Of a stretch of 44,109 nt of DNA, positions 1,517 to 44,109 are shown in pieces. This stretch comes from a virus: IMG/VR virus record IMGVR_UViG_3300045453_000097, positions 1 to 44,109 of that record; one strand, 5' to 3'. Within the stretch, counting starts at the first letter, position 1; every line of letters starts with the position of its first letter. The translations under genes were made by a program, and so were the position numbers. The notes under the pieces were generated by a model. It saw only the letters and a list, made by a program, of their open reading frames with translations. It was not told where the DNA came from and searched no databases.

Positions 1517-4500
1517 TTATGCACTCAGCGCGGCGGCCAGTGCGGCATTGCTTGCGGCGGCCTGTGCTGTGGTTTCCAGGGCCGTCTGCATGAGCCGATC
1601 GCTTTCTGCTGCGGTCAAGCCGCTGACGCCTGTTTCGACCGCGTAGGCCCGGCCGTACTCCATCTGCACGCCACCGCCGCCGGCCCTGATGACCGTCGAA
1701 CCGTCGGATCGGTACAGCCTGCCACCCACCACGCGCACGGGGGCGGCGTTCACGTTCTGGATTCGCATGTCGACCAGATCCACATTGATCCGGTAATTCA
1801 CGTCGTCCTCGGCTGTCATGCCGCCGTGGAAGAACCTGATTCCGTTTTCGGTCATCTGCCCGGCGATGTACCAGGCATAACCCCGCTGCACTGTCGTGAC
1901 GCCATCGGGGTCGTCGATGTCGATCTCGACGTTCGGATAGTCCTCGATGAACTCAGTCACGGCGTCGCCGTCGATGGCGTTTGCGTTGTACACCTTGTCA
2001 TCGACCTGGTCGGCCAGGATCGACCAGCCGAACTCAGAAGCGACGGTGCGGTATTGCGCCGGCACCTTAGCAGCCGCGCCAGACTGATAGGCCAGGCGCA
2101 CCTGCACAATGTCGCCCGCGCTGAACGTGCTGCCGTCCGGGTAACTCAGCGACCAGCTGGTGCCGGCCACGATCGTGTTTTCCACTTCGGTGCCGGCCGT
2201 GACGTTGACGACCTGGATGCGCGACCCTGGCACGACGTTCGTCACGGACGCGGCGGCCTGCATCACTGCTTCTTCGACGGTGATCGTCGCCGGTGTGGTG
2301 TTGACGTAAGACACGCCGGACACGACCTTCACTGTGATGTTCCCGCCGCTGTTGTTGACCAGCGTGATCGTGCCGGAAAGGTTCGCGCCAGCCAGGTCAT
2401 AAGTGCCGACAGCGCGGAAGTCGAACGTGCATCCGTCGTAGCTGCCGTCGATCACGCCGGCGGAATTCCACTCGACCACGCCACCGCCCCACGTCATGCC
2501 GCTGATCGCCGGGTCGACCACAGTCCAGCCGCTGTTCAGTGCCAGCAGCGCGCCGGCTCGATCCCACGGCATTTGCAGATCGATGTTCTGCACGCCCCAG
2601 GCCTGTGAATAGTCGTAAAGCTTTGCGAAGGTGTCGATCGTGCCGGCGCCGAATGTGATGCGCTTTGTCGCGGCGTTGATCGTGGCACCCGTGTAAGCAG
2701 CTGCCACAGCCTGCGCGACCTGCGTGTAGATGTTGACTCGACGGGTCGCAGAACCCTCGTCGAAAAAATACCCGTAGTGCCGCACCTTCGTGATGAACAG
2801 GCCGTCGGGCGTGCCGTCAAACCACACATTCCCGCCAGACAGCGTTTTCATCGCAACGTCATAGGACAGCGTGAACGACCCGTCGAAGCCCGATACGTTC
2901 GTCGCGTCGATTTCAAATCGCTCCCAAGCGTTCACGCACGCCGCAGTCGCCGACACGCTGATCGACTGGCCCAGGCCCGTGACCTTGACTGTCGGCGGCG
3001 TCCAGTCTCCTGCGTTGTAGAACGCTGAATCGACGCGCACATAAACGATCAGCTTCACGGTCGCGCCAGAAGCACAAATGATGCTCTGGCTGTGCGTGAA
3101 GACACGGCCCAGGTTCACGCTGAAGTTGTGCGGCGTGACCTTGATCGTCGAAGCGCCAGACAAGCGCACCACGTTGTCGCGCACCATGGACGCGACCTGC
3201 GTGTGACGCTCTTGCTGCGTCGGGTCGCGCTGCTTGTTGATGTAGCGCAGGTCAATGTCGCCCTGGTTTACAAGCTCGTCGGCGGTTTCGAATGTCGCAG
3301 TCTCGCCTCGCAGCAGACAGTCTTCTACGACGATTGATCCCAGGCCGCCCACGCCACTACCGTATCGGATGAAGTAGTCTTGCCCAAATTGTGTTCGCCA
3401 ACCGTGCGTCCAGCCAATATCGCACCGCCGGAATACCAGCGGCGTCGTGCCGGGTAGGGACACGAACTGTTGCTGACCTGAAAAAATGCAGTCTTCATAA
3501 ACGCCTGCATTCGCGCTGCTTCCAGTGCCTCCGATGTTCGTCAACCAAGAACCACGGGCAAAACTGCCGTACCCGAAACCAGAAGTCTGCCTAAAAAATG
3601 TGCTGCCCGTTTCTTGCACCCGACCCGTACCGAAGCCCCAAGGTATTTGCAAAAACACGTTGTCTTCGGACACCAGCCCGGCAGGGCTGTTGTAGACCAT
3701 AGGTTGAGTTGCGTGGTTGTAGACAGCCCGACGAACCTCAGGAACGTCACCGACAGGGGCCTGCCCCTCGAAGCTCAACGCCGTCTGGTTTGTAGAGTTG
3801 CCAAGTTCTCTAAGTTCAGCGTCATCAATGATCAGCTTTCGCGTACCCGGCACGCCACCAATGTGCTGCCTAAAACTCATCCGAGAAGTTTGCGTTGATA
3901 CAGTGCTCCACGGGCGCACCAGCACATTGCTGGTCAGATTGCAGGCGCGGCAGCCTGCTTTGTGACCATTCGCCAGTCCTGCGGTCAACGTCACCAGATC
4001 GCCGCTGACTGATGCAACGGTAGCCGTACTCGACCTGTCGCCGGGCACGCTATCCATCGAGGTCGGCAGGCGGATCAAGTCGCCGGGCTGCCAGCCGCAG
4101 TTCGAGGTCGTCAGCCTGATCTGTGTGGCCCCAGCGACCACGGCTTGCGCAAGAACTGCGTTTCGGGTGCGGGTGCCAGATCCGCAAAAACTCACATACC
4201 AACTGTGGGTTGGTTGCCCGGACAAAGATGGCATATCCAGGCCGGTTCGAAATGCCGTCGCGGTGCGGTTGAGCGTCAACGTAGCCGTGACGCCCAACGG
4301 GATGCGATCAGTCGACGTGCCGAAGTCCAGTCGCCCGCCCGTTGACGGCTGAATCTGAATCCACCCTCGAACGATCAATTCGCTGCTGACAGTGCGAGAC
4401 GCACGCAGCGTCCCATACACGTCGATAGCACCGCTGCCTGCTGTATTGCTATGCGGTGCGTCGTTGCCCCATGTGTATGTGCCGTCAAGCGTTACTGTGT

Positions 4501-4606
4501 GACCAGCCGCGATGATCACTTTGTCGCCGTCGATCGGGACAACGCCGCCGACCCATGTGGACGCGGCCGACGCAAGGCCAGACTGTGCTGATGTGATGGT
4601 CGCCAT
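1517..4606 (-). CDS. large tail fibre/spike with G8-like and beta-helix regions, 1029 aa
   Basis: Probable receptor-binding or fibre protein. The first about 100 residues resemble a G8-type domain (STWVGGVVPIDGDKVII then AGHTVTLDG). The middle (about 250-480) is repetitive with short beta segments (for example VVEDCLLRGETATFE), suggesting a right-handed beta-helix. The 480-620 part looks like a jelly-roll carbohydrate-binding module, and the C-terminus (about 990-1029) is a short Ala-rich helix (AAQAAASNAALAAALSA), as seen at fibre ends. No chaperone domain is obvious. It follows the collagen-like fibre protein by 3 bases, so the fibre genes form one block. Function is inferred from composition and place. 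Confidence 0.65.
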   Translation of the reverse strand: MATITSAQSGLASAASTWVGGVVPIDGDKVIIAAGHTVTLDGTYTWGNDAPHSNTAGSGAIDVYGTLRASRTVSSELIVRGWIQIQPSTGGRLDFGTSTDRIPLGVTATLTLNRTATAFRTGLDMPSLSGQPTHSWYVSFCGSGTRTRNAVLAQAVVAGATQIRLTTSNCGWQPGDLIRLPTSMDSVPGDRSSTATVASVSGDLVTLTAGLANGHKAGCRACNLTSNVLVRPWSTVSTQTSRMSFRQHIGGVPGTRKLIIDDAELRELGNSTNQTALSFEGQAPVGDVPEVRRAVYNHATQPMVYNSPAGLVSEDNVFLQIPWGFGTGRVQETGSTFFRQTSGFGYGSFARGSWLTNIGGTGSSANAGVYEDCIFSGQQQFVSLPGTTPLVFRRCDIGWTHGWRTQFGQDYFIRYGSGVGGLGSIVVEDCLLRGETATFETADELVNQGDIDLRYINKQRDPTQQERHTQVASMVRDNVVRLSGASTIKVTPHNFSVNLGRVFTHSQSIICASGATVKLIVYVRVDSAFYNAGDWTPPTVKVTGLGQSISVSATAACVNAWERFEIDATNVSGFDGSFTLSYDVAMKTLSGGNVWFDGTPDGLFITKVRHYGYFFDEGSATRRVNIYTQVAQAVAAAYTGATINAATKRITFGAGTIDTFAKLYDYSQAWGVQNIDLQMPWDRAGALLALNSGWTVVDPAISGMTWGGGVVEWNSAGVIDGSYDGCTFDFRAVGTYDLAGANLSGTITLVNNSGGNITVKVVSGVSYVNTTPATITVEEAVMQAAASVTNVVPGSRIQVVNVTAGTEVENTIVAGTSWSLSYPDGSTFSAGDIVQVRLAYQSGAAAKVPAQYRTVASEFGWSILADQVDDKVYNANAIDGDAVTEFIEDYPNVEIDIDDPDGVTTVQRGYAWYIAGQMTENGIRFFHGGMTAEDDVNYRINVDLVDMRIQNVNAAPVRVVGGRLYRSDGSTVIRAGGGGVQMEYGRAYAVETGVSGLTAAESDRLMQTALETTAQAAASNAALAAALSA

Positions 4607-20101: not shown

Positions 20102-20584
20102 TCAGACCTTGTCGTAGCCCAGCGCTTGCAGGGCTGCGACGTAGTCAACGTTGTGCTGCTTGGCGTAGGCCTTGGCCTCGGCATCCATCTGCTCGCGCGT
20201 CTTGGCGCCGCCAGCAGCCGCAGCAGCGCCTGCAGCACCACCAGGGGCGGCGGCGGGCGCATCGCTGTAGTGAGCCTGGCCAGCCGTGGCCAGCGTGGCG
20301 CGATGGGCTTGCACCACCGCAGCAGCGGCTTCGGGGCCCGTGGTCTTGCCGTCAAACGCCAGCTGCTCGATCAGCGCCTCGTGGCCAGGCAGGGCCTGAC
20401 CGCGCACGGCCTGGATGCGCTCACGCTCAGCCTTGGCGCCCTCAGCGCTGAACTGCGCCTGCAGTGCGGCATACAGGCCAGGGTTGCCGCTGGCCAGGGT
20501 CTCAGCCGTCAGCCCTGCCACAGCGGCAGTGACCGCCGCACTGATGGCGGCCTGGGTGGGTTGGGTGTTTTCGGGGGTCGACAT
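20102..20584 (-). CDS. nested scaffold protein (Nu3-like), 160 aa, internal start
   Basis: Within the protease gene, in frame, an ATG at 20584 (MSTPENTQPTQAAISAAV) is preceded by AAAGGA at 8 bases. This matches lambda C/Nu3, where the protease C-terminal part is made separately as the scaffold. The sequence is acidic and helical (ERERIQAVRGQALPGHEALI) with an Ala/Gly-rich linker and a C-terminal 'KAYAKQHNVDYVAALQALGY', probably the capsid-binding end. Expression from this start is inferred from the ribosome site and the known family layout. Confidence 0.65.
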   Translation of the reverse strand: MSTPENTQPTQAAISAAVTAAVAGLTAETLASGNPGLYAALQAQFSAEGAKAERERIQAVRGQALPGHEALIEQLAFDGKTTGPEAAAAVVQAHRATLATAGQAHYSDAPAAAPGGAAGAAAAAGGAKTREQMDAEAKAYAKQHNVDYVAALQALGYDKV

Positions 20585-21544
20585 CGTCGTGGTCCTTTCA
20601 GGAATGACAACGGGCGCCGAAGCGCCCGTGGTGGTTGGATGAATGGTGGCCGTTGCGGCCCGGGATCGCCCGCCCGGCCGACTGCCGGGAGGCTCAACCA
20701 GCAGCCCCTGGGGATCAGTGGCCAGCTGGTCGATGAGCTGATCGAGCGACATGAAGCCGTCCACCAGACCCGCATCGATCGCCTGCTGACCAATGAACAC
20801 ACGGCCATCGGCCATGTCAGACAACACCTGCTCGACAGACACGCCACGGTGGCTGGCCACGGCATCCACGAACAGGCTGTACAGGTAGTCCACACGCTCT
20901 TGCATGTGCTCGCGCCCAGCCTTGGTCAGCGGTTCGTACTGACTGGCGATGCGCTTGTAGCGGCCAGCGGTCACCTCGGTGGTCTTCACCCCGCTGGCAG
21001 CCTCTTGCTTGCTGAAGTCGCGATGCATGGCCACCACGCCAATGCTGCCAACCTCCACCACCGGCCCGCTGATGTACAGCTTCGCGCAGGCCGAGCCCGC
21101 CCAGTAGCCCGCACTGCATACCTGCCCGTCACTGAACGCCACCAGCGGCTTCACAGCACGCAGGCGCAGCAGCTCGGCACCCAGCTCAGGCGTGCCCACC
21201 ACCGCCCCGCCAGGCGTGTCCAGGTGGGCGATCACGGCCTTCACATCCGGGTCGGCTTCGGTCTCGCGCAGCATGCGAATCACTGTCTGTGTCGACACCA
21301 TGCCCGACACATCCGAGAACATCGAGGCCTTGGGCGTCATCACCCCATGCACCGGCACCACCGCCACGCCGCGCACCACCTCATAAGGCTTGGGCTCGTT
21401 GGACAGCGGACGGCCCAGCCGCGCCTCGATGGTGGCCAGGTCAGCCACCTCACCACGCACGTGAGCCGCGTAGATGTCCTGGATCTGAGCCAGCTGCTCG
21501 GGGCGGATCGCGCAGGGGCTGGTGAGGAATTCAGAGAGTTTCAT
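20102..21544 (-). CDS. head maturation protease, S49 (gpC-like), fused with scaffold region, 480 aa
   Basis: SppA/ClpP-fold serine protease that processes the procapsid. The nucleophile is Ser144 in 'GQVCSAGYWAGS' and the probable Lys197 of the dyad is in 'TAGRYKRIA'. The N-terminal 'GVAVVPVHGVMTPKA' and 'HLDTPGGAVVG' blocks are typical of S49. From about residue 320 the protein is a scaffold-like, Ala/Gln-rich helical region with its own start (see next entry). The start has no obvious ribosome site, and the gene no longer follows the portal directly because two other genes lie between. Confidence 0.88.
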   Translation of the reverse strand: MKLSEFLTSPCAIRPEQLAQIQDIYAAHVRGEVADLATIEARLGRPLSNEPKPYEVVRGVAVVPVHGVMTPKASMFSDVSGMVSTQTVIRMLRETEADPDVKAVIAHLDTPGGAVVGTPELGAELLRLRAVKPLVAFSDGQVCSAGYWAGSACAKLYISGPVVEVGSIGVVAMHRDFSKQEAASGVKTTEVTAGRYKRIASQYEPLTKAGREHMQERVDYLYSLFVDAVASHRGVSVEQVLSDMADGRVFIGQQAIDAGLVDGFMSLDQLIDQLATDPQGLLVEPPGSRPGGRSRAATATIHPTTTGASAPVVIPERTTTMSTPENTQPTQAAISAAVTAAVAGLTAETLASGNPGLYAALQAQFSAEGAKAERERIQAVRGQALPGHEALIEQLAFDGKTTGPEAAAAVVQAHRATLATAGQAHYSDAPAAAPGGAAGAAAAAGGAKTREQMDAEAKAYAKQHNVDYVAALQALGYDKV

Positions 21545-21643
21545 AGGGCATCAACAAAGTTTGTCAATCCATCATCCGCGCGATTGACGCAGCGCAGCAA
21601 AGTGGCGTGTGATGGAAGCTCCTTTAACCACTCGGGAGAGAAT

Positions 21644-22216
21644 ATGAAGAAGATTACCTTTGCAATTGCCGCTGCGATTGCTTGTGGCGCGTCAAGCGCT
21701 GCACAGATTACCTTACCAAATACTGGGGCCACACTGAGTTTCTCAGATGGACTTGTTGTCAAGAGCATCGGGAACATTTGGTATGGCAACGACATGGAGA
21801 TGGGCGACAGAGTTTTACTTGTTGCAGAAGTCAGCAAAGGGATTTCAGATTTCTTTTTTTCCTTATCGAGCGCCACAACCATTTACTCCGCCTCGGTGTT
21901 TCAAATGGAAGTATTAAAATACTCGGATGGCTTCAGAAGCGGAAATTACAAATTCTCAGCAAACACAATTGAAAGCACAAACTTCGGCAACGCCACCGTT
22001 TCATTCACACCTGGCACTTGGTTGTTGCCATCTGATGACGCAGATTGCGCAAGCGTGCTTTGCATGACACCAATCAAAGACCGTGCTTTCATTTCATTCT
22101 CAGTTTTTGCAGGGAGCGTTTCAGCTATACCAGAGCCGTCTGGCTATTTATTGCTTGCAGCTTCGTTGGGTGCAGCAGGAGTCATTTCCGCTCGACGCAG
22201 AAGTCACCAGGCGTGA
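21644..22216 (+). CDS. secreted PEP-CTERM sorting-domain protein, 190 aa
   Basis: N-terminal signal peptide (MKKITFAIAAAIACGASSAA) and C-terminal sorting signal: 'IPEPSGYLLLAASLGAAGVI' followed by ARRR. This is the PEP motif, a membrane helix and a basic end recognised by exosortase. The 150-residue middle is beta-rich and AT-richer than the neighbours. ATG has GGGAGAG 5 bases upstream; a possible promoter TTGACG (21584) with TGTGAT 18 bases on lies just before. It runs against the late operon and overlaps the tailspike 3' end by 13 bases. Exosortase systems belong to the host, so this is probably host-derived cargo that alters the cell surface of lysogens. Confidence 0.8.
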   Translation: MKKITFAIAAAIACGASSAAQITLPNTGATLSFSDGLVVKSIGNIWYGNDMEMGDRVLLVAEVSKGISDFFFSLSSATTIYSASVFQMEVLKYSDGFRSGNYKFSANTIESTNFGNATVSFTPGTWLLPSDDADCASVLCMTPIKDRAFISFSVFAGSVSAIPEPSGYLLLAASLGAAGVISARRRSHQA

Positions 22217-23907
22217 ATTTCAACGTCATCGATCTCAATCACGTCATTCAGCGCCAAGTTGTTCAGCCGCACGCGCCAGCCCACCCATTCGTAACCAGCC
22301 GGGGCCCTGCTGGCAGTGCCCGCAGTCCGTCGCTGCTGCCAGGCAGTGCTCAACGCAAAGGTGCCGCTCTGGTCAATTTGACCGCTGACAACGCCAGCGG
22401 GCACCATGACCACATCTGATCCCTGCGTCTGTGTAGGGCCTTGGAAAAAGCCAAACTGAACGACGACTTGCGCAGTTGACGCGGGAGATCGAACACGCAG
22501 AGCGCCCGTGTAAGCACGGGCGGCAGAACCGGCACGCTTGAGGATGAAGATGTCAGCTTGACCAGCATTGCCACCATCGGCTGCCGCAAGTTTTGTGGCT
22601 CGCAGGCACTTGGTGCCAGTTCGAGCCCCTGCGTCACTGACAGCAATCGACACCGTTGTAGTCGTGTGCCGATTGGATGCTGTGCCACCGCGAACGTAGA
22701 TCGTGTCCAAGAAATTGGTGGCCCCGGTGCCGAGCACCTCAAAACCACCGTCAAGCAGCTCGTTCCTCGATTCATGCACACCAATGGGCAGCGCAGTTGC
22801 AGCCGCGCCCCCGTTGATTTCAAGCACGCAACGCTCGGCAATGACTGCGCCCGTGCCTTTGCCCAAATAGCCCGATGCTGTTTCGACGTTCTGGATGGAT
22901 ACCCCATCAAGCAGTACGGGCGGAGCCGTGATGGCTGACGTGTTCTGGTTGTCGAACCAATGAGTAAGCTGCGTGTGTCCGGCCTCCCCGTCAGTCATCA
23001 CAAGTCGGCCACCCTTCATCAAGATGGCGCCGTTATTGCTGACAATCCAGGGTACATGGTTGGCACCGTAAGTGTTGCGGCGCTTGTTTGTTTCGACGTG
23101 ACAGCCGAGTAGATGAACTCGACCAGCCTGCACCGTTCCCATGAAACGGTTGTAATCCAGGGATGAGCCGATGAACGTAAGTTGGCCGCGCTCCAAAGTG
23201 ATGCCGTTAACGCTGTTCAGCAAAGCGCCGCCGTAATAGACAGGCAACTCATAGCCATCCGGGTAGCCAGCACCCACCTTGATGCCTGCTGAACCACACT
23301 CAAAAATCGACCAGCCGTAGTGACCGATGCCCCACGCGGTGTTTCCGTACTCTTCGCCAACATCGCAGTCGGCAATCGAGAAGTTCTTGAGCGCGTATCG
23401 GGAGGCGCCAGCGCCTTGCAGCACACCATCGGGGCGGTGATGGAAGATCCCTCGCGTACCCACAGCGTCACGCCCCGGGCCTCGGATGTGGAAGTTCTCA
23501 ATGTAGAACGCCGATTGTGAGTGGACTCGCTCGTCGGTGCCAGTCAAGCGCATCGCTGTCGCGCCTGCATCTGGCCGCAACTCAAGCTGCGAGAAGTCGA
23601 TGGCGGTCTTTGCCATGTCAACGACTAACTCGCCCGTGAGGCGTGCGCGCTGGTTCACCATGTTCGGAAACCGGAGGACACTGCGCGGGTAAGTGGCAGC
23701 GAACCAGTCGATCGTCTCCTGCAACGCCGCAGTGTCGTCTGTCGTGCCGTTCAGAACTGCACCGTAACGCTGCAATGCGGATTCGACCTTACCCCCCACC
23801 ACCTGACCCGCATCTGGCAGATCAAGGGACAGACCTCGGCCAAGCGACAGCATGTAGTCATCGCCTCGACGGATTACCTTGGCTTTACGTGGGAAGCGCG
23901 ACATCAT
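22204..23907 (-). CDS. tailspike-like beta-helix protein with C-terminal sugar-binding-type domain, 567 aa
   Basis: After a short N-terminus the head region 'RYGAVLNGTTDDTAALQETI' matches the typical entry of phage pectate-lyase-fold spikes (GA-x-x-x-G-x-x-D-D-T-A-A-x-Q). A repetitive beta-helix follows (about 90-390, with 'NVETASGYLGKGTGAVIAER'). From about 400 there is a jelly-roll-like domain (FEVLGTGATNFLDTIYVRGG ... DVIEIDDVEIHAW). It probably binds or degrades surface polysaccharide. It is odd that it sits between portal and head protease, while tail genes lie 10 kb away. The ATG overlaps the portal stop (ATGA). No signal peptide. Confidence 0.7.
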   Translation of the reverse strand: MMSRFPRKAKVIRRGDDYMLSLGRGLSLDLPDAGQVVGGKVESALQRYGAVLNGTTDDTAALQETIDWFAATYPRSVLRFPNMVNQRARLTGELVVDMAKTAIDFSQLELRPDAGATAMRLTGTDERVHSQSAFYIENFHIRGPGRDAVGTRGIFHHRPDGVLQGAGASRYALKNFSIADCDVGEEYGNTAWGIGHYGWSIFECGSAGIKVGAGYPDGYELPVYYGGALLNSVNGITLERGQLTFIGSSLDYNRFMGTVQAGRVHLLGCHVETNKRRNTYGANHVPWIVSNNGAILMKGGRLVMTDGEAGHTQLTHWFDNQNTSAITAPPVLLDGVSIQNVETASGYLGKGTGAVIAERCVLEINGGAAATALPIGVHESRNELLDGGFEVLGTGATNFLDTIYVRGGTASNRHTTTTVSIAVSDAGARTGTKCLRATKLAAADGGNAGQADIFILKRAGSAARAYTGALRVRSPASTAQVVVQFGFFQGPTQTQGSDVVMVPAGVVSGQIDQSGTFALSTAWQQRRTAGTASRAPAGYEWVGWRVRLNNLALNDVIEIDDVEIHAW

Positions 23908-25538
23908 TCGTCTCCGGGTTCTTGAGTTGCAGGCTGAGCCGCTGCAGGCCGACCACCAGGCGCAGCTGCCCCAGCTTTAGGGGCAGGCATGAGATTGGCG
24001 GTGCGCAGGGCATCTTCTTCGGCCCGCTTCGGTTCCAGCGTGCGGTTGAAGTCGGTGCCGAACAGTTCCCACTCGGCCCGCTCACGGGTGCACAGGCGGG
24101 CGTCGATGGCGTCGCGGTAGGCGGCCACCTCATCTTTGGGATTGATCGAGCCCTGGCTGTCGCCGAACCACTCTGCGCGGGTGTAGGCCCAGCGCATCAG
24201 GGGGTCTTCAAAGAAGCCGGGAGCCTTGACGCGGCCCAGGATGACGGCCTCGGTCAGCCAGGTCTCATAGATCGGCTGGCAGAAGCTCAGGGCCAGCCAG
24301 CGGCGACGGCGGCGCAGGTACTGCCAGGCGTCCAGCAACGCGGCCTTACTGGCGCTGTAGCTGGCGTTGAACTGCTTGATCAGCAGCTCATACGGCAGGC
24401 CCAGCGCCACGCCGATCTGGCGAATCACCGCCAGGGTGAAGGGCTCGAAGGCAGTGTTGGGGCGTGTGGGGTTGGCAAAGTCAATGCGCTCATTGCCGGT
24501 CAGGCCCACGATGGCGCCCGAGCCCATGGCCACATCCGCATCAGGCGCACCCTGGGGCACGCTGCCCTGGGCCTGCGCCTGGCCAGGGTCACCGCCGGTG
24601 AACACCGGGTTGCTGTCACCCTCGGGCGTAGTCACGAACACCGTGAACATGCTCGACACGACTGCCGCCTTGATCTCGGCATCGGTGTAGGTGGTGATCT
24701 GCTTGATGCACTCGATCACCGGGGTGAGGTAGGGCAGGCCGCGCGGCTGCTCAGGGCGCAAGCGGTCAAAGTGGTGCAGCATGCGGCGGCGGCCACTGCC
24801 GCCAAGCAGGTCCACCCACTGCCCCGCCCAGCGGTTGCCTACCAGTTGCAGGCTGCCTGGGTGGCGGTCGTACAGGTGGCAGGCCACTGGCCGGCCGTTG
24901 CTGTCCATGCGGATGCCACCGGCTACGTCGTCGGTGTCAAACTGACCGCCCGGGTTGCCCACGCGATCAGCCTCCAGCACCTGCACACGCAGCCGATACG
25001 GGCGCATGCGCGTGGCTGCGGGCGCATCGGGCAGGTTGCTGAAGCAGTCGCCGCTTTCCAGCGTGCTGCGCAGCACCAGGGCCTGCAGCTGGTCAAAGTT
25101 CTGCACTTCGGTCAGGTCGCAGTTCGCAGGGCTGTCGGCCCACATGGCGAACTCGTCTTGCGTGCGGGCCTTCCAGTCGTTGAGCTGCTGCTCGGTCCAG
25201 CCCAGGATGCGGCGGTTGGGCATGGCGCTCAGCGCCAGGCCCGTGCCCACCACGCGGTCTACATTGGTGTTGATGGCACCGATGGCAATGGGCGAGAGGC
25301 GGGCCAGCTCACGCGAGCGGCCGCGCATGTCGTACAGCTCGCCTGCCTGGTCAGTCAGGGCGCTGCGAGGCACCGCACGCCAGTTGCGTGGATTGGTGAC
25401 CGTGCTGCCGCTGCTGTAAGCGCCACCCAGCGCCATCTCTTGCATGGTGCGGGCGTGCAGGCGCTGCAGGCCCCGCTGCGGCGAGACGTAGCTGATCGCC
25501 CGATCCAGCAAGGTCGGGGCGGGCACTTTGATTTTCAT
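23904..25538 (-). CDS. portal protein, lambda gpB-like, 544 aa
   Basis: Dodecameric portal at the capsid vertex through which DNA enters. Family features seen: 'RSRELARLSPIAIGAINTNV' near residue 75, 'QALVLRSTLESGDCFSNLP', 'GGIRMDSNGRPVACHLYDRH', 'LPYLTPVIECIKQITTYTDA', and 'SYSASKAALLDAWQYLRRRR'. The C-terminal tail is Ala/Pro-rich (GAAAPGGRPAAAQPATQEPG). It lies 11 bases after the gpW-like gene. Confidence 0.9.
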   Translation of the reverse strand: MKIKVPAPTLLDRAISYVSPQRGLQRLHARTMQEMALGGAYSSGSTVTNPRNWRAVPRSALTDQAGELYDMRGRSRELARLSPIAIGAINTNVDRVVGTGLALSAMPNRRILGWTEQQLNDWKARTQDEFAMWADSPANCDLTEVQNFDQLQALVLRSTLESGDCFSNLPDAPAATRMRPYRLRVQVLEADRVGNPGGQFDTDDVAGGIRMDSNGRPVACHLYDRHPGSLQLVGNRWAGQWVDLLGGSGRRRMLHHFDRLRPEQPRGLPYLTPVIECIKQITTYTDAEIKAAVVSSMFTVFVTTPEGDSNPVFTGGDPGQAQAQGSVPQGAPDADVAMGSGAIVGLTGNERIDFANPTRPNTAFEPFTLAVIRQIGVALGLPYELLIKQFNASYSASKAALLDAWQYLRRRRRWLALSFCQPIYETWLTEAVILGRVKAPGFFEDPLMRWAYTRAEWFGDSQGSINPKDEVAAYRDAIDARLCTRERAEWELFGTDFNRTLEPKRAEEDALRTANLMPAPKAGAAAPGGRPAAAQPATQEPGDE

Positions 25539-25963: not shown

Positions 25964-26494
25964 TCAGTCGCTTTCATCCGTTATTTGGCGCGTGCCACCA
26001 CGGGACTGCAGGTGGTCGGCCGCCGCCAGGTTCTGATCCAGGATCGAGCGGGCCGACGAGATGACACGGGCGCGGAACGATCGCAACAGCCGGTACCAGT
26101 GGTTGCGTGACACCCCCAGGGCCGCTGCCGCTTGCTTGACGCTGCCCACGTTGTACAGGTAGTGCAGCTGGAACACCTTGCGGTCCAGGCCATCGGCAGG
26201 CTGTGCCACCACCGCGATGTGCAGCGCGGCCAGCATGGCGCTGCATGCCGCATCAGGCGGGCCACCACTGCTGGTGCGCTTGCGCTTTTGCAGCCGGCCC
26301 AGCACGCTGCCGGCCACCGGTGGCGGGCCGAAGAAGTTTCGCGTACGGCACCAGTGGCCATAGGCCTCGAACAGCTCATCTTGCGCAGCGATCTCGATGG
26401 TCTCGGCCTCGGTCAGCGGCGGGGCGTCATCATCCTCGGGCCGGTCGGGTGCCGGGGCGCTGAAGGTCTTGGGCTTGTCGTGAGGGTCGTGCAT
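25964..26494 (-). CDS. HTH regulator, possible late-gene activator/antiterminator, 176 aa
   Basis: The N-terminal 65 residues are acidic and flexible. The C-terminal half contains a clear helix-turn-helix: 'GSVKQAAAALGVSRNHWYRL', preceded by 'DRKVFQLHYLYNV', a layout like sigma-70 region 4 and like Q/ArpU-type phage late regulators. ATG overlaps the large terminase stop (TGATG). Unusually it lies after the terminase genes and before gpW, immediately upstream of two palindromes and a terminator, which would fit control of the structural operon. Not matched to a named family. Confidence 0.6.
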   Translation of the reverse strand: MHDPHDKPKTFSAPAPDRPEDDDAPPLTEAETIEIAAQDELFEAYGHWCRTRNFFGPPPVAGSVLGRLQKRKRTSSGGPPDAACSAMLAALHIAVVAQPADGLDRKVFQLHYLYNVGSVKQAAAALGVSRNHWYRLLRSFRARVISSARSILDQNLAAADHLQSRGGTRQITDESD

Positions 26495-28707
26495 CAGATT
26501 CCTCTTGAGATCATCCGGCGGCGGCGCACCACCGGGTACTGGTTGACGGGCTGCGCGTACTGCATCGGCGCTGGCGGCGGGGGCGGTGCAGCGGCTGGTG
26601 GGGGCACGGGTGCTGCAGGTGTGGCCGGCTGGGGCGCGGGTGCTGCCTCCGGCTCTGTGATGGTTTGCTGGGGCCCAGGGTCTGGCTCTGGCAGCGCTTG
26701 CTGCTGTGCCGCCTCGGCTTGCTCTGGCGCTTCAGCCGTTGGCGGCGTGACGGGCGCCGGTGCTGGTTGTGCGGGCGCACTGGCAGGTGTGGTGACCGGT
26801 GCGGTGGTGGGCACCGTGGCGAACAGGTCAGCCGTGTGGTGCGTGGGTATCAGTCGCTCACGCAGTGCCTGCCACTCGCGTGCGCTCCACTTGTGCAGGC
26901 CCAGCTTGTGCGCGATGGCCAGGTTGTACACCGAGGTGTCCCACGGCTCGTTGCGTGCACCTGGTGGCTTCACCCAGATCGTCACCACCTGCCCGCGCTT
27001 GTTCAGCTTGCGCAGGGGGCGCTCGGCCACGAGGCCATCAAACCAGGCCTTGCCCAGGCCTGTGTGCATGTGCATGGCGCCAGGGCCGCCGGCACGCTTG
27101 AGTCGGCTGTACAGCCACTCTTTGGCGGTGTCGGTACCGATGAACCACAGGCGTGCACCCTTGTCTACCCTGCGGCCATTCCAGTCGATGTCCACCTTGG
27201 TGGGCACGCTGCTGATGATCGGCTTCTCGGGCCGGTTGGCACCCTTGATGATCACGCAGCCCGAGCGCTCACGCCCCGCGCCGAAGTTGTACACGTCCTG
27301 CGTGTTCAGGCCGCCCGAGTCGATCGCATAGGCGCTGATGTAGATCGGCACGCCGCTGACGTGATACAGCGGTGTGGCCCGCAGCTGCTCCAGGCGCTGC
27401 CACACACTGCCCGGCCGGGACGGCGGCTCGGTCGGGTCGCCCGTGAGCACCTGGTAGTCCATCACCCAGTGCTCCATCTCAGGGCCCCAGGCCTCAATCT
27501 GTACTTCAAGGCGATCAGGCTGCGTGTCCACCGCCATGGTCAGCACCAGCGCGGGATCAGGGATCAGGCGCAGCTGGTAGGTCTCGGCCTTGGCCCGCTC
27601 GATCAACTGATCGGCCGAGGCCGAGGCGTCGGTGTCGTTGTAGCTCAAGGCCAGACGCGTGTTGTAGTACACGCGCATGGCGTCGCTGTCACCGCGCTCG
27701 CGCCGCTCTTCGGCCCGCGCGTGCTGACGGGCCAGCGCCAGCCAGCTGATGTCGCCCGGCTTGGCATAGAAGGCGCTGATGTGAAACGACACCGTCTCAC
27801 CATCACCCTCACTGTCGGCCACCCAGCGGGCCATGCCGCCCATGGCCTCATCGCGCAGCATCCAGCCCTTGTGGCGCTCGTCGATCTCGGCCCCACAGTC
27901 AGGGCACACGAACCACGCGCGGCTCATATAGCCCGTCTCTGGGTCGCGGCTGTAGTGGAAGTTTTCCTGCACCAGCTCGTGCAGGTGGTGGCAGTGCGGG
28001 CACGGGACGTGGTAAGCCTCGCGCGTGCCCATGGCGTACAGCGTGTCGATCTTCGAGAAGTTCTCGATGGTGGGCGAGCTGGTCGCGTAGATCTTGCAAT
28101 TGCTCGAGAACGTGGTGGTGCGGGCCTCGGCCAGCTCAACGGGGTCGCCCTCGCCTTCCACGCTCGACTCCATCCGGTCTACTTCGTCCAGGTACACGTA
28201 CCGCGCCGGGATCTCAGCCAGGTTGGACGCTGCGCCGGCCGTGGTGATGTACAGGGCGCCGCCCTTAAAATCCTTGGCGTCGATGGTGTTGCGGCTGTCA
28301 CGCGATCGCGGCTGCGCCACGGCTGCGGCCACCGCAGGCACATCGCGGATGCTGGCAGCCAGCCGGGCACTCAAGCGCTTGGCCAGCTTGTCGGTGGGCT
28401 GCAGCGCCAGGATGTTCGCGGGCGCCAGGTGGATGCACGACAGCATCCAGTTGATGGCGGTCTGCGTCTTCAGCATCTGCGACGCGGCACGAACCACCAC
28501 GCGCTTGGCGGGGTGACCAGGGCTCAGCACCTGCAGCACGCGGCGGGCGTAGGGCGTTCGCTCCAGCCGATACGGCCCGGGCTCGCTGCTGCTCTTGGGC
28601 AGCACCATGTGCGCCTCTGACCACTCATCGCAGCGCAGCTCAGGGTCAGGCCTGGCGCCACGCAGCGCAGCCTGCATCACCTCGCTGTAGCCGTCTGCGA
28701 CGTTCAT
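26494..28707 (-). CDS. large terminase, GpA family, 737 aa
   Basis: ATPase-nuclease that packages DNA. Deviant Walker A region 'VVRAASQMLKTQTA' (about 72-85), Walker B 'YVYLDEVDRM' (170-179), a Zn-binding pair 'CPHCHHLH' and 'VCPDCGAEID', and a nuclease half starting near 'TMAVDTQPDRLEVQIEAWG' with 'AYAIDSGGL'. The last about 105 residues are a low-complexity Pro/Ala tail ending in a basic RRRR patch, longer than I expect for the family. Starts 4 bases inside the small-subunit gene (ATGA). Confidence 0.9.
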   Translation of the reverse strand: MNVADGYSEVMQAALRGARPDPELRCDEWSEAHMVLPKSSSEPGPYRLERTPYARRVLQVLSPGHPAKRVVVRAASQMLKTQTAINWMLSCIHLAPANILALQPTDKLAKRLSARLAASIRDVPAVAAAVAQPRSRDSRNTIDAKDFKGGALYITTAGAASNLAEIPARYVYLDEVDRMESSVEGEGDPVELAEARTTTFSSNCKIYATSSPTIENFSKIDTLYAMGTREAYHVPCPHCHHLHELVQENFHYSRDPETGYMSRAWFVCPDCGAEIDERHKGWMLRDEAMGGMARWVADSEGDGETVSFHISAFYAKPGDISWLALARQHARAEERRERGDSDAMRVYYNTRLALSYNDTDASASADQLIERAKAETYQLRLIPDPALVLTMAVDTQPDRLEVQIEAWGPEMEHWVMDYQVLTGDPTEPPSRPGSVWQRLEQLRATPLYHVSGVPIYISAYAIDSGGLNTQDVYNFGAGRERSGCVIIKGANRPEKPIISSVPTKVDIDWNGRRVDKGARLWFIGTDTAKEWLYSRLKRAGGPGAMHMHTGLGKAWFDGLVAERPLRKLNKRGQVVTIWVKPPGARNEPWDTSVYNLAIAHKLGLHKWSAREWQALRERLIPTHHTADLFATVPTTAPVTTPASAPAQPAPAPVTPPTAEAPEQAEAAQQQALPEPDPGPQQTITEPEAAPAPQPATPAAPVPPPAAAPPPPPAPMQYAQPVNQYPVVRRRRMISRGI

Positions 28708-33578: not shown

Positions 33579-34271
33579 ATGGCCCTCGGACACAACACAA
33601 AGCACCTGATGGACGTCACCAGCACGTCCTACAGTGACATCGCACAGCACTGCGGGACCGATCCTCAGGCGATCCAGGCACTCGTCAAGCGCAACAGTTC
33701 AAAGAGCAACTTTGCGACCGGTATTGCCAGTTATTTCAAAGTGCCGCTTGATCTTTTGATCAACGGAAGTGAATCGGCAATCGACCAGTATCTAACACAG
33801 GCCAAAAAAGAGAGGCAATCGGCCGAATACCCTACAACCCCGACCGAGGAATTGCGCGAACCAAAGACTGTGCAGTATCTTCCCGCCATACCAGTGACGC
33901 ATACGCTTAACGCTGGAAATGGGGAGTTTTGTAGCATGCAGTTGTTATCGGAGGGCGGCCAGATCTTGTGGCCGTTGGTCACCAAGGACGCCTATGCACT
34001 CAAGGTGCAGGGTGATCACCTGGCGCCCCGCGCTCGGCACGGTGAGTACCTTCTGATCGATCCCATCGCAGAGTACAGCGCAGGCGACGAAGTTGCAGCA
34101 CAATTGGCACATCCTGACGCGGTGTACGTGGGGGTTTACCTGTACCAACGCGATGGGCTGTTTTATTTCGAGGATATCAACCTGTCCGGAAAGAAGACGA
34201 GCATTTCCGAGACCGATATTCTGAATATCCACCTGATTGCGGGGTATGCCAAGAATCACATGCGCCGCTAA
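33579..34271 (+). CDS. S24-type phage repressor (CI-like) lacking Ser and Lys of the protease dyad, 230 aa
   Basis: N-terminal HTH (about 8-60: 'STSYSDIAQHCGTDPQAIQA'), linker, then an S24/LexA-fold C-terminal domain ('DAYALKVQGDHLAPRARHGE ... YLLIDP'). In self-cleaving relatives the GDxM/L position carries Ser (G-D-S-M); here it is His147 (G-D-H-L). The Lys position in 'V-K-R-x-x-x-x-R-D-G' is Gly185 ('YVGVYLYQRDG'). So the fold is kept but the autoprotease is probably dead. It faces the cro-like gene and is likely the master repressor binding the six operator sites. Confidence 0.8.
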   Translation: MALGHNTKHLMDVTSTSYSDIAQHCGTDPQAIQALVKRNSSKSNFATGIASYFKVPLDLLINGSESAIDQYLTQAKKERQSAEYPTTPTEELREPKTVQYLPAIPVTHTLNAGNGEFCSMQLLSEGGQILWPLVTKDAYALKVQGDHLAPRARHGEYLLIDPIAEYSAGDEVAAQLAHPDAVYVGVYLYQRDGLFYFEDINLSGKKTSISETDILNIHLIAGYAKNHMRR

Positions 34272-39048: not shown

Positions 39049-39569
39049 AGCGCCGACATCACCATCGCGGCCTGTGCCCACGGGAGCAGGCCCGGCGTGA
39101 ACGCGAACGGCAGGACCAGATCCACCGCAACCCGCTGACCGGTGGCTACGCACGCCACATTGCGGTGCAGCGCATCAGCTCTTACTGCCGCAGCGTGCAG
39201 ATTGGCCTGTACCAGCAGACCCCAGGCCAAGACGCCACGAAGTACCTGGCCAAGCTGGGCTGGCTGATCGCCCTGGCCACCGAGGCCGAGCTGCAAGGCG
39301 CCGGCATCACCACCGAGCTGCGCCGCCTGCACGGTGGTCTGCGCCAGATCCAGGACGCATGCCTGCGCGGCTACAAGTGGCCAGACATCCATCCGGCCGG
39401 CATGGACCAGCTCGTGGACTTGGCCGTCGAGACGGTCACCAAGCTGCCAGCACACGCCCTGACCTTCATGCCTGGCGCCAACCACTTCGAGGCCGAGATC
39501 CTGCAGCACAAGGTCACGGCTTCGTCCATCAGCGGCGCTGAGATCTATCAGGAGGTGGCCAATGGCTGA
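39045..39569 (+). CDS. hypothetical protein, 174 aa
   Basis: Very basic start (MKRRHHHRGLCPREQARRER), then helical 'YLAKLGWLIALATEAELQGA' and 'GAEIYQEVANG'. The middle contains 'IHPAGMDQLVDLAVETVTKL'. No known domain seen. Overlaps both neighbours (4 and 8 bases), so it belongs to the early chain. Confidence 0.6.
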   Translation: MKRRHHHRGLCPREQARRERERQDQIHRNPLTGGYARHIAVQRISSYCRSVQIGLYQQTPGQDATKYLAKLGWLIALATEAELQGAGITTELRRLHGGLRQIQDACLRGYKWPDIHPAGMDQLVDLAVETVTKLPAHALTFMPGANHFEAEILQHKVTASSISGAEIYQEVANG

Positions 39570-40590
39570 GAACACCAAGATCGAATGGACGGATCACACG
39601 TTCAATCCGTGGACTGGGTGCACGAAGGTGTCGCCTGGATGTGATCACTGCTATGCCGAAGGCTGGAGCAAGCGTGCAGGTGACAAGGTCGGCAAGTGGG
39701 GGTCAGGCGCACCGCGAGTCCGCACCACGCCGGCAAACTGGGCCAAGCCGCTCAAGTGGCAAGCGAATGCTGCCTCGTTTATGGCCGAGCATGGCCGGCG
39801 TCAGCGCGTGTTTTGCGCCAGCCTGGCGGACGTGTTTGACAACGAGGTGCCGCCAGCTTGGCGCGCTGAACTGTTTGCCCTGATCGCAGCAACGCCGGAC
39901 CTCGATTGGCTGCTGCTCACCAAGCGCATCGGCAACGTAGCCAAGATGATCGAGGCGCCGGGTATGCAGAAGTGTGGTTTGCCTGAGAACGTCTGGCTTG
40001 GAGCCACCATCACCAGCCAGGCCGAGGCCGACCGCGACATCCCGAAGCTGCTGTCCGTGCCTGCTAAGGTGCGGTTCCTATCCATGGAGCCGCTACTCGG
40101 GCCAGTGCAACTCAGCCTTTGCGACTGCGACCAAGGCAGCATGCCAGGGCCTGGTGGGGTGGGCGGTGTCACCTGCCCGCGTTGCCAGGGTGCCGGCGGC
40201 CAAAATTTGGACTGGGTCATAGTCGGCGGCGAGAGCGGCCCCGGTGCACGCCCCATGCACCCTGACTGGGCCCGCAGCCTGCGCGATCAGTGCGCATCGG
40301 CCGGCGTGCCATTCCTGTTCAAGCAGTGGGGCAACTGGCGAGCCGCCGTGTGGTTTGACGGACCCGACGCCGAGCTTGATGAAGGTGATGACTTCATTGA
40401 CCTGGACCGCGTCAACCATCAATTCCTGGCCGCAGACGGACGTACATGGGATACCAGCGGTGGACGTCACATGTACCCGCCGCTGCCGCTTGGCCACTGG
40501 TGTCTGATGGTCAACGAAGGAAAGAAGGCAGCAGGCCGCCTGCTGGACGGTGTCGAGCACAACAGATTCCCGGAGCTGCGCTATGGCTGA
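39562..40590 (+). CDS. phage Gp37/Gp68 family protein (DUF5131), 342 aa
   Basis: Family start 'TKIEWTDHTFNPWTGCTKVS', with Cys20, Cys27 and Cys30 (C-x6-C-x2-C) forming a probable iron-sulfur or metal site, then 'LADVFDNEVPPAWRAELFAL', 'LDWLLLTKRIGN', 'VIVGGESGPGARPMHPDWAR' and 'PFLFKQWGNW'. Known only as a conserved mobile-element protein; some describe it as radical-SAM-like. A Cys insert (CDCDQGSMPG ... TCPRCQG) around residue 190-213 is an extra zinc ribbon. Confidence 0.85.
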   Translation: MAENTKIEWTDHTFNPWTGCTKVSPGCDHCYAEGWSKRAGDKVGKWGSGAPRVRTTPANWAKPLKWQANAASFMAEHGRRQRVFCASLADVFDNEVPPAWRAELFALIAATPDLDWLLLTKRIGNVAKMIEAPGMQKCGLPENVWLGATITSQAEADRDIPKLLSVPAKVRFLSMEPLLGPVQLSLCDCDQGSMPGPGGVGGVTCPRCQGAGGQNLDWVIVGGESGPGARPMHPDWARSLRDQCASAGVPFLFKQWGNWRAAVWFDGPDAELDEGDDFIDLDRVNHQFLAADGRTWDTSGGRHMYPPLPLGHWCLMVNEGKKAAGRLLDGVEHNRFPELRYG

Positions 40591-42516: not shown

Positions 42517-44109
42517 ATGCGCTGCTGCATCTACGCCCGCTACTCCACAGACCGCCAGAACGAGGCATCGATCAAAGACCAGGTGCAGGCCGCTGCACGC
42601 TACGCAGCGGCACAGGGCTGGGTCGTGGTGGCCACCCACACCGACAGTGAGCAGTCGGGCTCCACGCCCGTGGCCATGCGCCCAGGGGGCAAGGCCTTGC
42701 TGGCTGACTTGATGGCCAAGAAGTTTGACGTGCTGCTGGTTGAAGACCTGAGCCGTCTCAGCCGCCAGGTGGCCGAGTCCGAGAGCCTGATCAACCGGCT
42801 GGAGGCCCGAGGCGTGCGGATCGTGGGCATGTCTGACGCCTATGACTCCCGCTCGAAGGGGCGCAAAGTCACCCGGATCGCACGCAGCATGATCAACGAA
42901 CTGTACATCGATGACGTGCGGGACAAGACACACCGGGGCATGATCGGCAACATGAGCCGGGGCATGTCTGCCGGTGGGCGCACCTACGGCTACCGCAGCG
43001 AGCGCACACCGATTGGCTTCCAGATGGTCATTGACCAGGAAGAGGCCGACCATGTGCGCTGGATCTTTGAGCAGTTTGCCGACGGCAACAGCCCCCGCTA
43101 CATCGCCCACCAGCTCAACGCCCGAGGCATCCCCAGCGCCCGGGGCAGCACCTGGGCGGTCAGCGCCATCGTGGGCAGCAACGTGCGGGGCCTAGGCATG
43201 CTCAACAACGAGCTCTACATCGGGCGACACATCTGGAACCGCAGCCAGTGGATCAAAGATCCGGACACCGGAGCAAGGCGGCGCGTGGAGCGCCCACGCC
43301 ATGAGTGGATCGTGCGCGAGGATGAGACGCTGCGCATCATCGACCAAGAGCTGTGGGAACGGGTCAAGGCCCGCACCACGTCAAACCCGAACGCTGGCAG
43401 GCGTGGTGCTGCGCACCGCACGCTGTTTGGCGGCCTGATGACCTGCGGGCAGTGTGGTGGGCCCATCGTGAGCATCAACACGCACCGGTACGGCTGCTCG
43501 ATCCACAAGGACCGCGGCAACACCGTCTGCGGCAACTCACGCACCCTGCCGCGCGAGATGCTGGACAACCGCCTGATCACCGAGGTGCGCGACCAGCTGC
43601 TGCAGCCAGGACTGCTGATGGTCGTCAGGGCTGAGCTGAAGCGCCTGATGGCCCTGCACAGTCGCACGGCACGCGCGTCCACCACGGACATGCGCAAGCG
43701 CCTGCAGGAACTGGAAGGTCAGATTGGCAACCTAGTGGCATCGCTGGCCTCGGTGGGCTTCAGCGCGGCCGTGGCGAGCGCACTACAGGCCGCCGAGCGC
43801 GAGAAGGCCGAGCTGGAGGAAGCGCTGGCCATCAAGCTGCCCAGCAACACTGACATGGCCCTGGACGAGGTCGAGGGACGCTACAAGCGGATGCTGATGA
43901 GGCTGAAGACAGCGCTGGACGACGAAGACCGCGCGGCAGTGCGCACACTTCTGAGTCAGCTGATGGGATCGATGGTGGTGAAACCAACATCGGAAGGCGT
44001 GACCATCACCTATGAAGAACCCGCCGAGCGCCTGCTGTATGCAGCCGTCGGCGAGTCTCTAGGAGTGGTTGCGGGGGCCGGATTTGAACCAACGACCTTT
44101 GGGTTATGA
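42517..44109 (+). CDS. large serine recombinase (integrase), 530 aa
   Basis: Catalytic Ser10 in 'IYARYSTDRQNEASIKDQVQ', resolvase domain to about 140 ('LLVEDLSRLSRQVAESESLI'), recombinase domain about 155-285 ('YRSERTPIGFQMVIDQEEAD', 'ARGIPSARGSTWAVSAI'), zinc ribbon about 305-345 ('MTCGQCGGPIVSINTHRYGC', with a further Cys in 'VCGNSR'), then a coiled-coil region. It inserts and excises the prophage by serine-type recombination. The last 12 or so codons (GAGFEPTTFGL) come from the tRNA on the other strand, so the end of the gene is fixed by the attachment site. Divergent from the moron, start-to-start gap 42 bases. Confidence 0.92.
   Translation: MRCCIYARYSTDRQNEASIKDQVQAAARYAAAQGWVVVATHTDSEQSGSTPVAMRPGGKALLADLMAKKFDVLLVEDLSRLSRQVAESESLINRLEARGVRIVGMSDAYDSRSKGRKVTRIARSMINELYIDDVRDKTHRGMIGNMSRGMSAGGRTYGYRSERTPIGFQMVIDQEEADHVRWIFEQFADGNSPRYIAHQLNARGIPSARGSTWAVSAIVGSNVRGLGMLNNELYIGRHIWNRSQWIKDPDTGARRRVERPRHEWIVREDETLRIIDQELWERVKARTTSNPNAGRRGAAHRTLFGGLMTCGQCGGPIVSINTHRYGCSIHKDRGNTVCGNSRTLPREMLDNRLITEVRDQLLQPGLLMVVRAELKRLMALHSRTARASTTDMRKRLQELEGQIGNLVASLASVGFSAAVASALQAAEREKAELEEALAIKLPSNTDMALDEVEGRYKRMLMRLKTALDDEDRAAVRTLLSQLMGSMVVKPTSEGVTITYEEPAERLLYAAVGESLGVVAGAGFEPTTFGL
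44066..44109 (-). tRNA. 3' part of initiator tRNA-fMet (CAT), cut by the window edge
   Basis: Reverse strand reads T-CAT-AA (anticodon loop), then CCC, variable AGGTC, T-arm GTTGG-TTCAAAT-CCGGC, acceptor CCCCGCA, A73 and encoded CCA. Three C at 39-41 (GC-rich anticodon stem) and A72, which implies a 1:72 mismatch, are hallmarks of initiator tRNA. Only the 3' half is inside the window; the 5' half would be just beyond. It overlaps the integrase 3' end and is the likely attachment site. Confidence 0.85.

Follow-up and report, generated by a model that had tools for sequence, protein, structure and literature searches.

The late genes of the virus record IMGVR_UViG_3300045453_000097 (44,109 bases, analyzed at full length and called the window below) lie on the minus strand in the order terminase, portal, gene of a 567-aa protein, S49 protease, cement and capsid proteins. 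The space between portal and protease thus holds the gene of the 567-aa protein and, on the plus strand, a gene with a PEP-CTERM sorting tail, which raises the question of what these two genes encode and whether they belong together. The sequence-only reading had described them as a two-gene insert, and its coordinates, strands, coupling to the portal stop and convergent overlap of 13 bases are all as claimed: the gene of the 567-aa protein starts with the ATGA (23907-23904) that overlaps the portal stop, and GGAG is found upstream. The features relevant to the analysis are the following.

20102-21544, minus: S49-type head maturation protease, downstream flank of the slot (PF01343, E 2.6e-34; phrog_53)
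21545-21643, plus: leader from the protease start to the PEP-CTERM start, with a GGGAGA ribosome site and no promoter recognised
21644-22216, plus: gene of the PEP-CTERM protein, 190 aa, complete (PF07589 over the cut-off; GC3 0.47)
22124-22201, plus: PEP-CTERM sorting tail inside the 190-aa gene (genome profile search)
22204-22216, convergent: 13-base tail-to-tail overlap of the 3' ends of the spike and PEP-CTERM genes
22204-23907, minus: gene of the 567-aa putative modular spike (reading frame and coupling; PF12708 N-cap below the cut-off)
23779-23904, minus: N-terminal module of the spike, common to the relative L003 (44% identity over 41 aa, E 9e-7)
23904-25538, minus: portal protein, lambda family, upstream flank of the slot (PF05136, E 2.9e-91; phrog_21)
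26494-28707, minus: terminase
33579-34271, plus: S24-type repressor (PF00717 over the cut-off)
42517-44109, plus: large serine integrase (PF00239, PF07508), the frame ending in a tRNA remnant (GAGFEPTTFGL)
44065-44079: 15-base attachment core GTGGTTGCGGGGGCC, repeated at L216:112 on the opposite side of the prophage

The portal-protease junction as a cargo slot

Junctions were compared in those viral contigs and GTDB genomes that have a related portal; 115 were measured, leaving 95 distinct ones when duplicates were dropped by identity and gap length. The gap between portal and protease is at most 100 bases in 61 of the 95 distinct relatives, 101-450 bases in 21 and more than 800 bases in 13, the corresponding numbers being 14, 16 and 3 among the 33 relatives whose portal is at least 50% identical. 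Named hosts of these relatives include Methylibium, Comamonas, Acidovorax, Xylophilus, Variovorax, Hydrogenophaga and Piscinibacter. In five isolated phages portal and protease are adjacent.

The small slot genes that were read often encode a coiled coil and a membrane stretch. Large inserts mostly carry virion-type proteins on the portal strand, with hydrolase/tail-fibre and minor tail protein families (phrog_16653/32409, phrog_13352, phrog_3995) as well as GH19 and Ig-like domains. Since the gap content varies among relatives and the isolates have the two genes adjacent, the junction is a general cargo slot of this phage lineage, and its content is accessory.

The proposal that both window genes form an accessory insert agrees with this comparison. 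Most relatives are empty at this position, so the two genes are not core, and a scan with a wide PEP-CTERM motif, which recovers the gene of the window as a positive control, finds no PEP-CTERM-like reading frame in the junctions of the 41 relatives whose insert is longer than 150 bases.

Two minor observations concern the protease side of the slot. No clear ribosome site precedes the protease start (21541-21570, minus), which in many relatives is coupled to the portal by overlapping its stop; the insert abolishes this coupling here. An antisense reading frame ending on the protease start (21541-21882, minus, 113 codons) is attributed to chance, as 72% of synonymous shuffles stay open as long.

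The PEP-CTERM gene, its host and its counterparts in other phages

The plus-strand frame is not a chance one, since it combines a ribosome site with a signal-like start and a PEP-CTERM tail over the Pfam cut-off (PF07589, 23 bits against 20.7; 26.8 bits, E 3.8e-7, in the genome search). The N-terminus, MKKITFAIAAAIACGASSAAQ, resembles a signal peptide by eye, and the C-terminus consists of a PEP motif, a membrane stretch and a basic, arginine-rich cluster. The score for the FxDxF subfamily (NF038126) is 24.2 bits, below the curated cut-off of 50. With the tail removed, the ectodomain has no significant similarity to the other PEP-CTERM proteins gathered, the likeness thus residing in the tail.

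The gene had been called AT-richer than its surroundings, and its GC content and GC3, both 0.47, are indeed low. The phage core genes that were tested have GC3 of 0.79-0.86, and the spike gene, with GC3 of 0.65, is between them. By composition and orientation the PEP-CTERM gene looks like cargo acquired separately from the spike. It has the features of a moron, being accessory, missing from most relatives and deviating in composition. This assignment is weakened by the lack of a recognisable sigma-70 or sigma-54 promoter upstream, and by the position of the gene within the late operon, outside the lysogeny region and antisense to late transcription. A second contig, IMGVR_UViG_3300045950_000018, is identical to positions 1-22130 of the window and ends within the PEP-CTERM gene; it is the same phage, and hence gives no independent measure of selection on this gene.

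The protein resembles known exosortase substrates (PF07589, TIGR02595), such as PepA of Aquincola tertiaricarbonis, in the signal-like start, PEP motif, membrane stretch and C-terminal arginine cluster, and in the Burkholderiales setting. Unlike them, it is encoded by a phage, its ectodomain has no clear homolog, its FxDxF similarity is weak, and no sigma-54 site like that of pepA was found upstream of its gene. PEP-CTERM proteins take part in floc formation by activated-sludge bacteria, and overexpression of PepA in Aquincola decreases soluble and increases bound exopolysaccharide (PMC9850573). Alteration of the cell surface by phage morons and lysogenic-conversion genes is well known, e.g. 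by gtr and sieA of P22 (PMC10883804). The gene of the window is similar to these in being an accessory gene of foreign composition, oriented against the neighbouring transcription, in a temperate phage, and differs in that it would depend on a sorting peptidase of the host and in having no recognised promoter.

The phage is temperate, as follows from the S24 repressor, the serine integrase ending in a tRNA remnant and the 15-base repeat at both prophage ends, and its integration site is a tRNA gene whose anticodon, taken from the sequence, is CAT. No exosortase was found in the 44,109 bases of the record. Of 16 genomes that carry portal relatives, 5 have this enzyme, and so do 4 of 11 selected for a similar tRNA site; it is therefore common, not universal, in plausible hosts. 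The attachment flank was also considered as a pointer to the host: its tRNA part matches hundreds of genomes, and G774, which matches the flank best, does so too weakly to identify the host (G774 has PEP-CTERM proteins and no exosortase match). The earlier expectation of one virion protein and one host-sorted surface protein agrees with what the two genes look like, and the phage lacks an exosortase of its own. Elsewhere in the record, positions 39562-40590 (plus) encode a DUF5131 protein (E 3.6e-94), which also weakly matches a radical-SAM mobile-pair model.

PF07589 was searched in 74 distinct virus records (lists of 25 and 50, with one in common). Three of them, L188-L190, had been picked for having PEP-CTERM genes and so match by construction. 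Among the records chosen by portal there is one convincing match, G327, where the PEP-CTERM gene (L217:7821-8531) lies immediately behind the repressor, toward the integrase; on the integrase side it adjoins an SRAP/YedK-like gene and a HicAB-like pair. A doubtful Pfam match in G332/G378 (a 127-aa frame) was left out of the count, as was L201, which may not be viral. With the records added by two motif-based scans of viral contigs, whose PEP-CTERM tails pass Pfam, such genes are found in about ten other virus records; the scans need a near-exact motif, so that no frequency can be derived from them, and prophage records may include host DNA at their ends. Phage genes confirmed with PHROGs lie near the PEP-CTERM genes in L188 (portal), L189 (DnaC-like), L202 (Erf-like), L203 (helicase), L206 (DNA polymerase), L207 (replication initiation) and L208 (integrase). 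The one in L189 also has a 575-aa methyl-accepting chemotaxis-like protein nearby (L189:2912-4639).

Tandem pairs of PEP-CTERM genes occur in L190, L203, L204/L205 and L206. In L204-L206 they are located directly upstream of the DNA polymerase gene (pair coordinates L203:4449-5727, L204:2983-4318, L206:3765-5102), and the paired proteins are recognisably similar between these related records. We tentatively suggest, as a possibility falling somewhat short of even odds, that phages of exosortase-bearing Burkholderiales repeatedly carry PEP-CTERM conversion genes which use the host exosortase to alter the cell surface or the matrix of flocs, both in lysogens and perhaps, where tandem pairs lie by the DNA polymerase gene, in lytic infection. 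A literature search of incomplete coverage found no paper on phage-borne PEP-CTERM proteins.

These data bear on the rather unlikely alternative that the gene of the window is a recently captured host gene, functionless in the phage and a passenger heading to decay. Its foreign composition, opposite orientation in a late operon, lack of a recognised promoter and absence from the other relatives' junctions would fit such an origin, while the frame is intact, retaining ribosome site, signal-like start and sorting tail, and PEP-CTERM genes recur in unrelated phages.

The 567-aa protein

The 567-aa protein had been proposed to be a beta-helix spike coupled to the portal. The coupling stands, and a spike-like modularity has been added to it; the fold is no more than plausible, as PF12708 matches the N-cap stretch only (E 0.0018, below the cut-off), in a segment following the N-terminal module, and the AlphaFold2 model computed with no alignment has a mean pLDDT of 38. 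Foldseek lists for this model were set aside because of the pLDDT value. No homologs of the protein were found in viral contigs, GTDB genomes, phage records, PDB or PHROGs, and a plasmid search with the region gave no match.

The modularity comes from the closest relative, L003 (portal identity 70%), whose slot contains a 1.9-kb insert. The first gene of this insert has 41 N-terminal residues in common with the spike (pairwise comparison) and then diverges, its distal part giving a weak match to GDSL lipases; the PEP-CTERM gene is absent from L003. A scan for the N-terminal module returned L003 as the sole match, so the combination of a conserved N-terminal module with differing distal domains is seen in two cases, the window included. 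Spikes attached to the particle typically combine a common N-terminal module with exchanged distal domains, and the 567-aa protein is therefore likely to be a modular spike.

Modular tailspikes and head spikes or fibres are a known class, e.g. the RcGTA head spike (PMC7296036). The putative spike of the window resembles them in its N-terminal module, exchangeable distal domain and polysaccharide-type motif, and differs in being encoded between portal and protease and in that no homolog was found. With its place in a variable slot, it adds a new example to a known kind of modular evolution. The spike reading is weakened by the beta-helix being only hinted at, and by a large protein at the end of the tail module (1517-4606, minus, 1029 aa, N-terminal G8 domain), which is possibly the main tail fibre, spike or receptor-binding protein.

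That the 567-aa protein is instead a released enzyme or another accessory late protein seems unlikely. The absence of homologs and of a confident fold leaves room for it, and slot content is not always structural, given that one relative has a DNA methyltransferase-like gene and no virion-type protein there (L071:3680-4396); against this, the gene is coupled to the portal, matches to tail or virion-type families exist for the majority of the large inserts, and the exchange of distal domains behind a common module is spike-like.

Two probable surface cargoes in one slot

The sequence-only reading had also suggested that the two genes may act together on cell-surface polysaccharide or as receptor masking. 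As a functional pair, the spike would digest or bind a surface polysaccharide, which the PEP-CTERM protein would mask or remodel to shield the lysogen; this is improbable, since, despite the adjacency and convergent overlap of the genes and the effect of the Aquincola protein on exopolysaccharide retention (PMC9850573), they differ in composition and orientation, a search for the pair located both genes at no second locus, the nearest relative has the spike module only, and the portal relative G327 has its PEP-CTERM gene elsewhere.

The reading that we favour, with a probability of about 0.58, is that the slot holds two surface cargoes with no link between them: a spike of the virion, and a protein that is sorted by the host and changes the envelope of the lysogen. 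It is preferred because the slot varies, the N-terminal module is common to L003, the phage is temperate, its record has no exosortase, the PEP-CTERM gene is of foreign composition, and PEP-CTERM genes recur in other phages. We infer from these observations that the spike sits on the virion and targets polysaccharide, and that the PEP-CTERM protein is expressed in the lysogen, sorted by the host and active on the surface.

According to the two-cargo reading, the spike would be made late, in translational coupling to the portal, and added to the particle, at the head, neck or tail, the conserved N-terminal module tying it there and the exchangeable distal part binding or cutting surface polysaccharide. 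The PEP-CTERM gene would have been added separately, in the opposite direction, as a moron. In the lysogen its product would leave the cytoplasm through Sec, be processed by the host exosortase and reach the envelope or the exopolysaccharide, where it may change how cells aggregate, how polysaccharide is retained or how other phages gain access; an effect on aggregation or on phage access would be likely, as the Aquincola PEP-CTERM protein moves exopolysaccharide from the soluble to the bound fraction (PMC9850573). Late transcription would cross the PEP-CTERM gene in antisense and might thereby silence it during lytic growth.

Undescribed virion adhesins may be sought in the slot. That PEP-CTERM genes with host-sorted products recur in phages is a more interesting point than the spike: if phages supply PEP-CTERM proteins, lysogeny could alter aggregation, polysaccharide retention and phage access by way of the sorting enzyme of the host.
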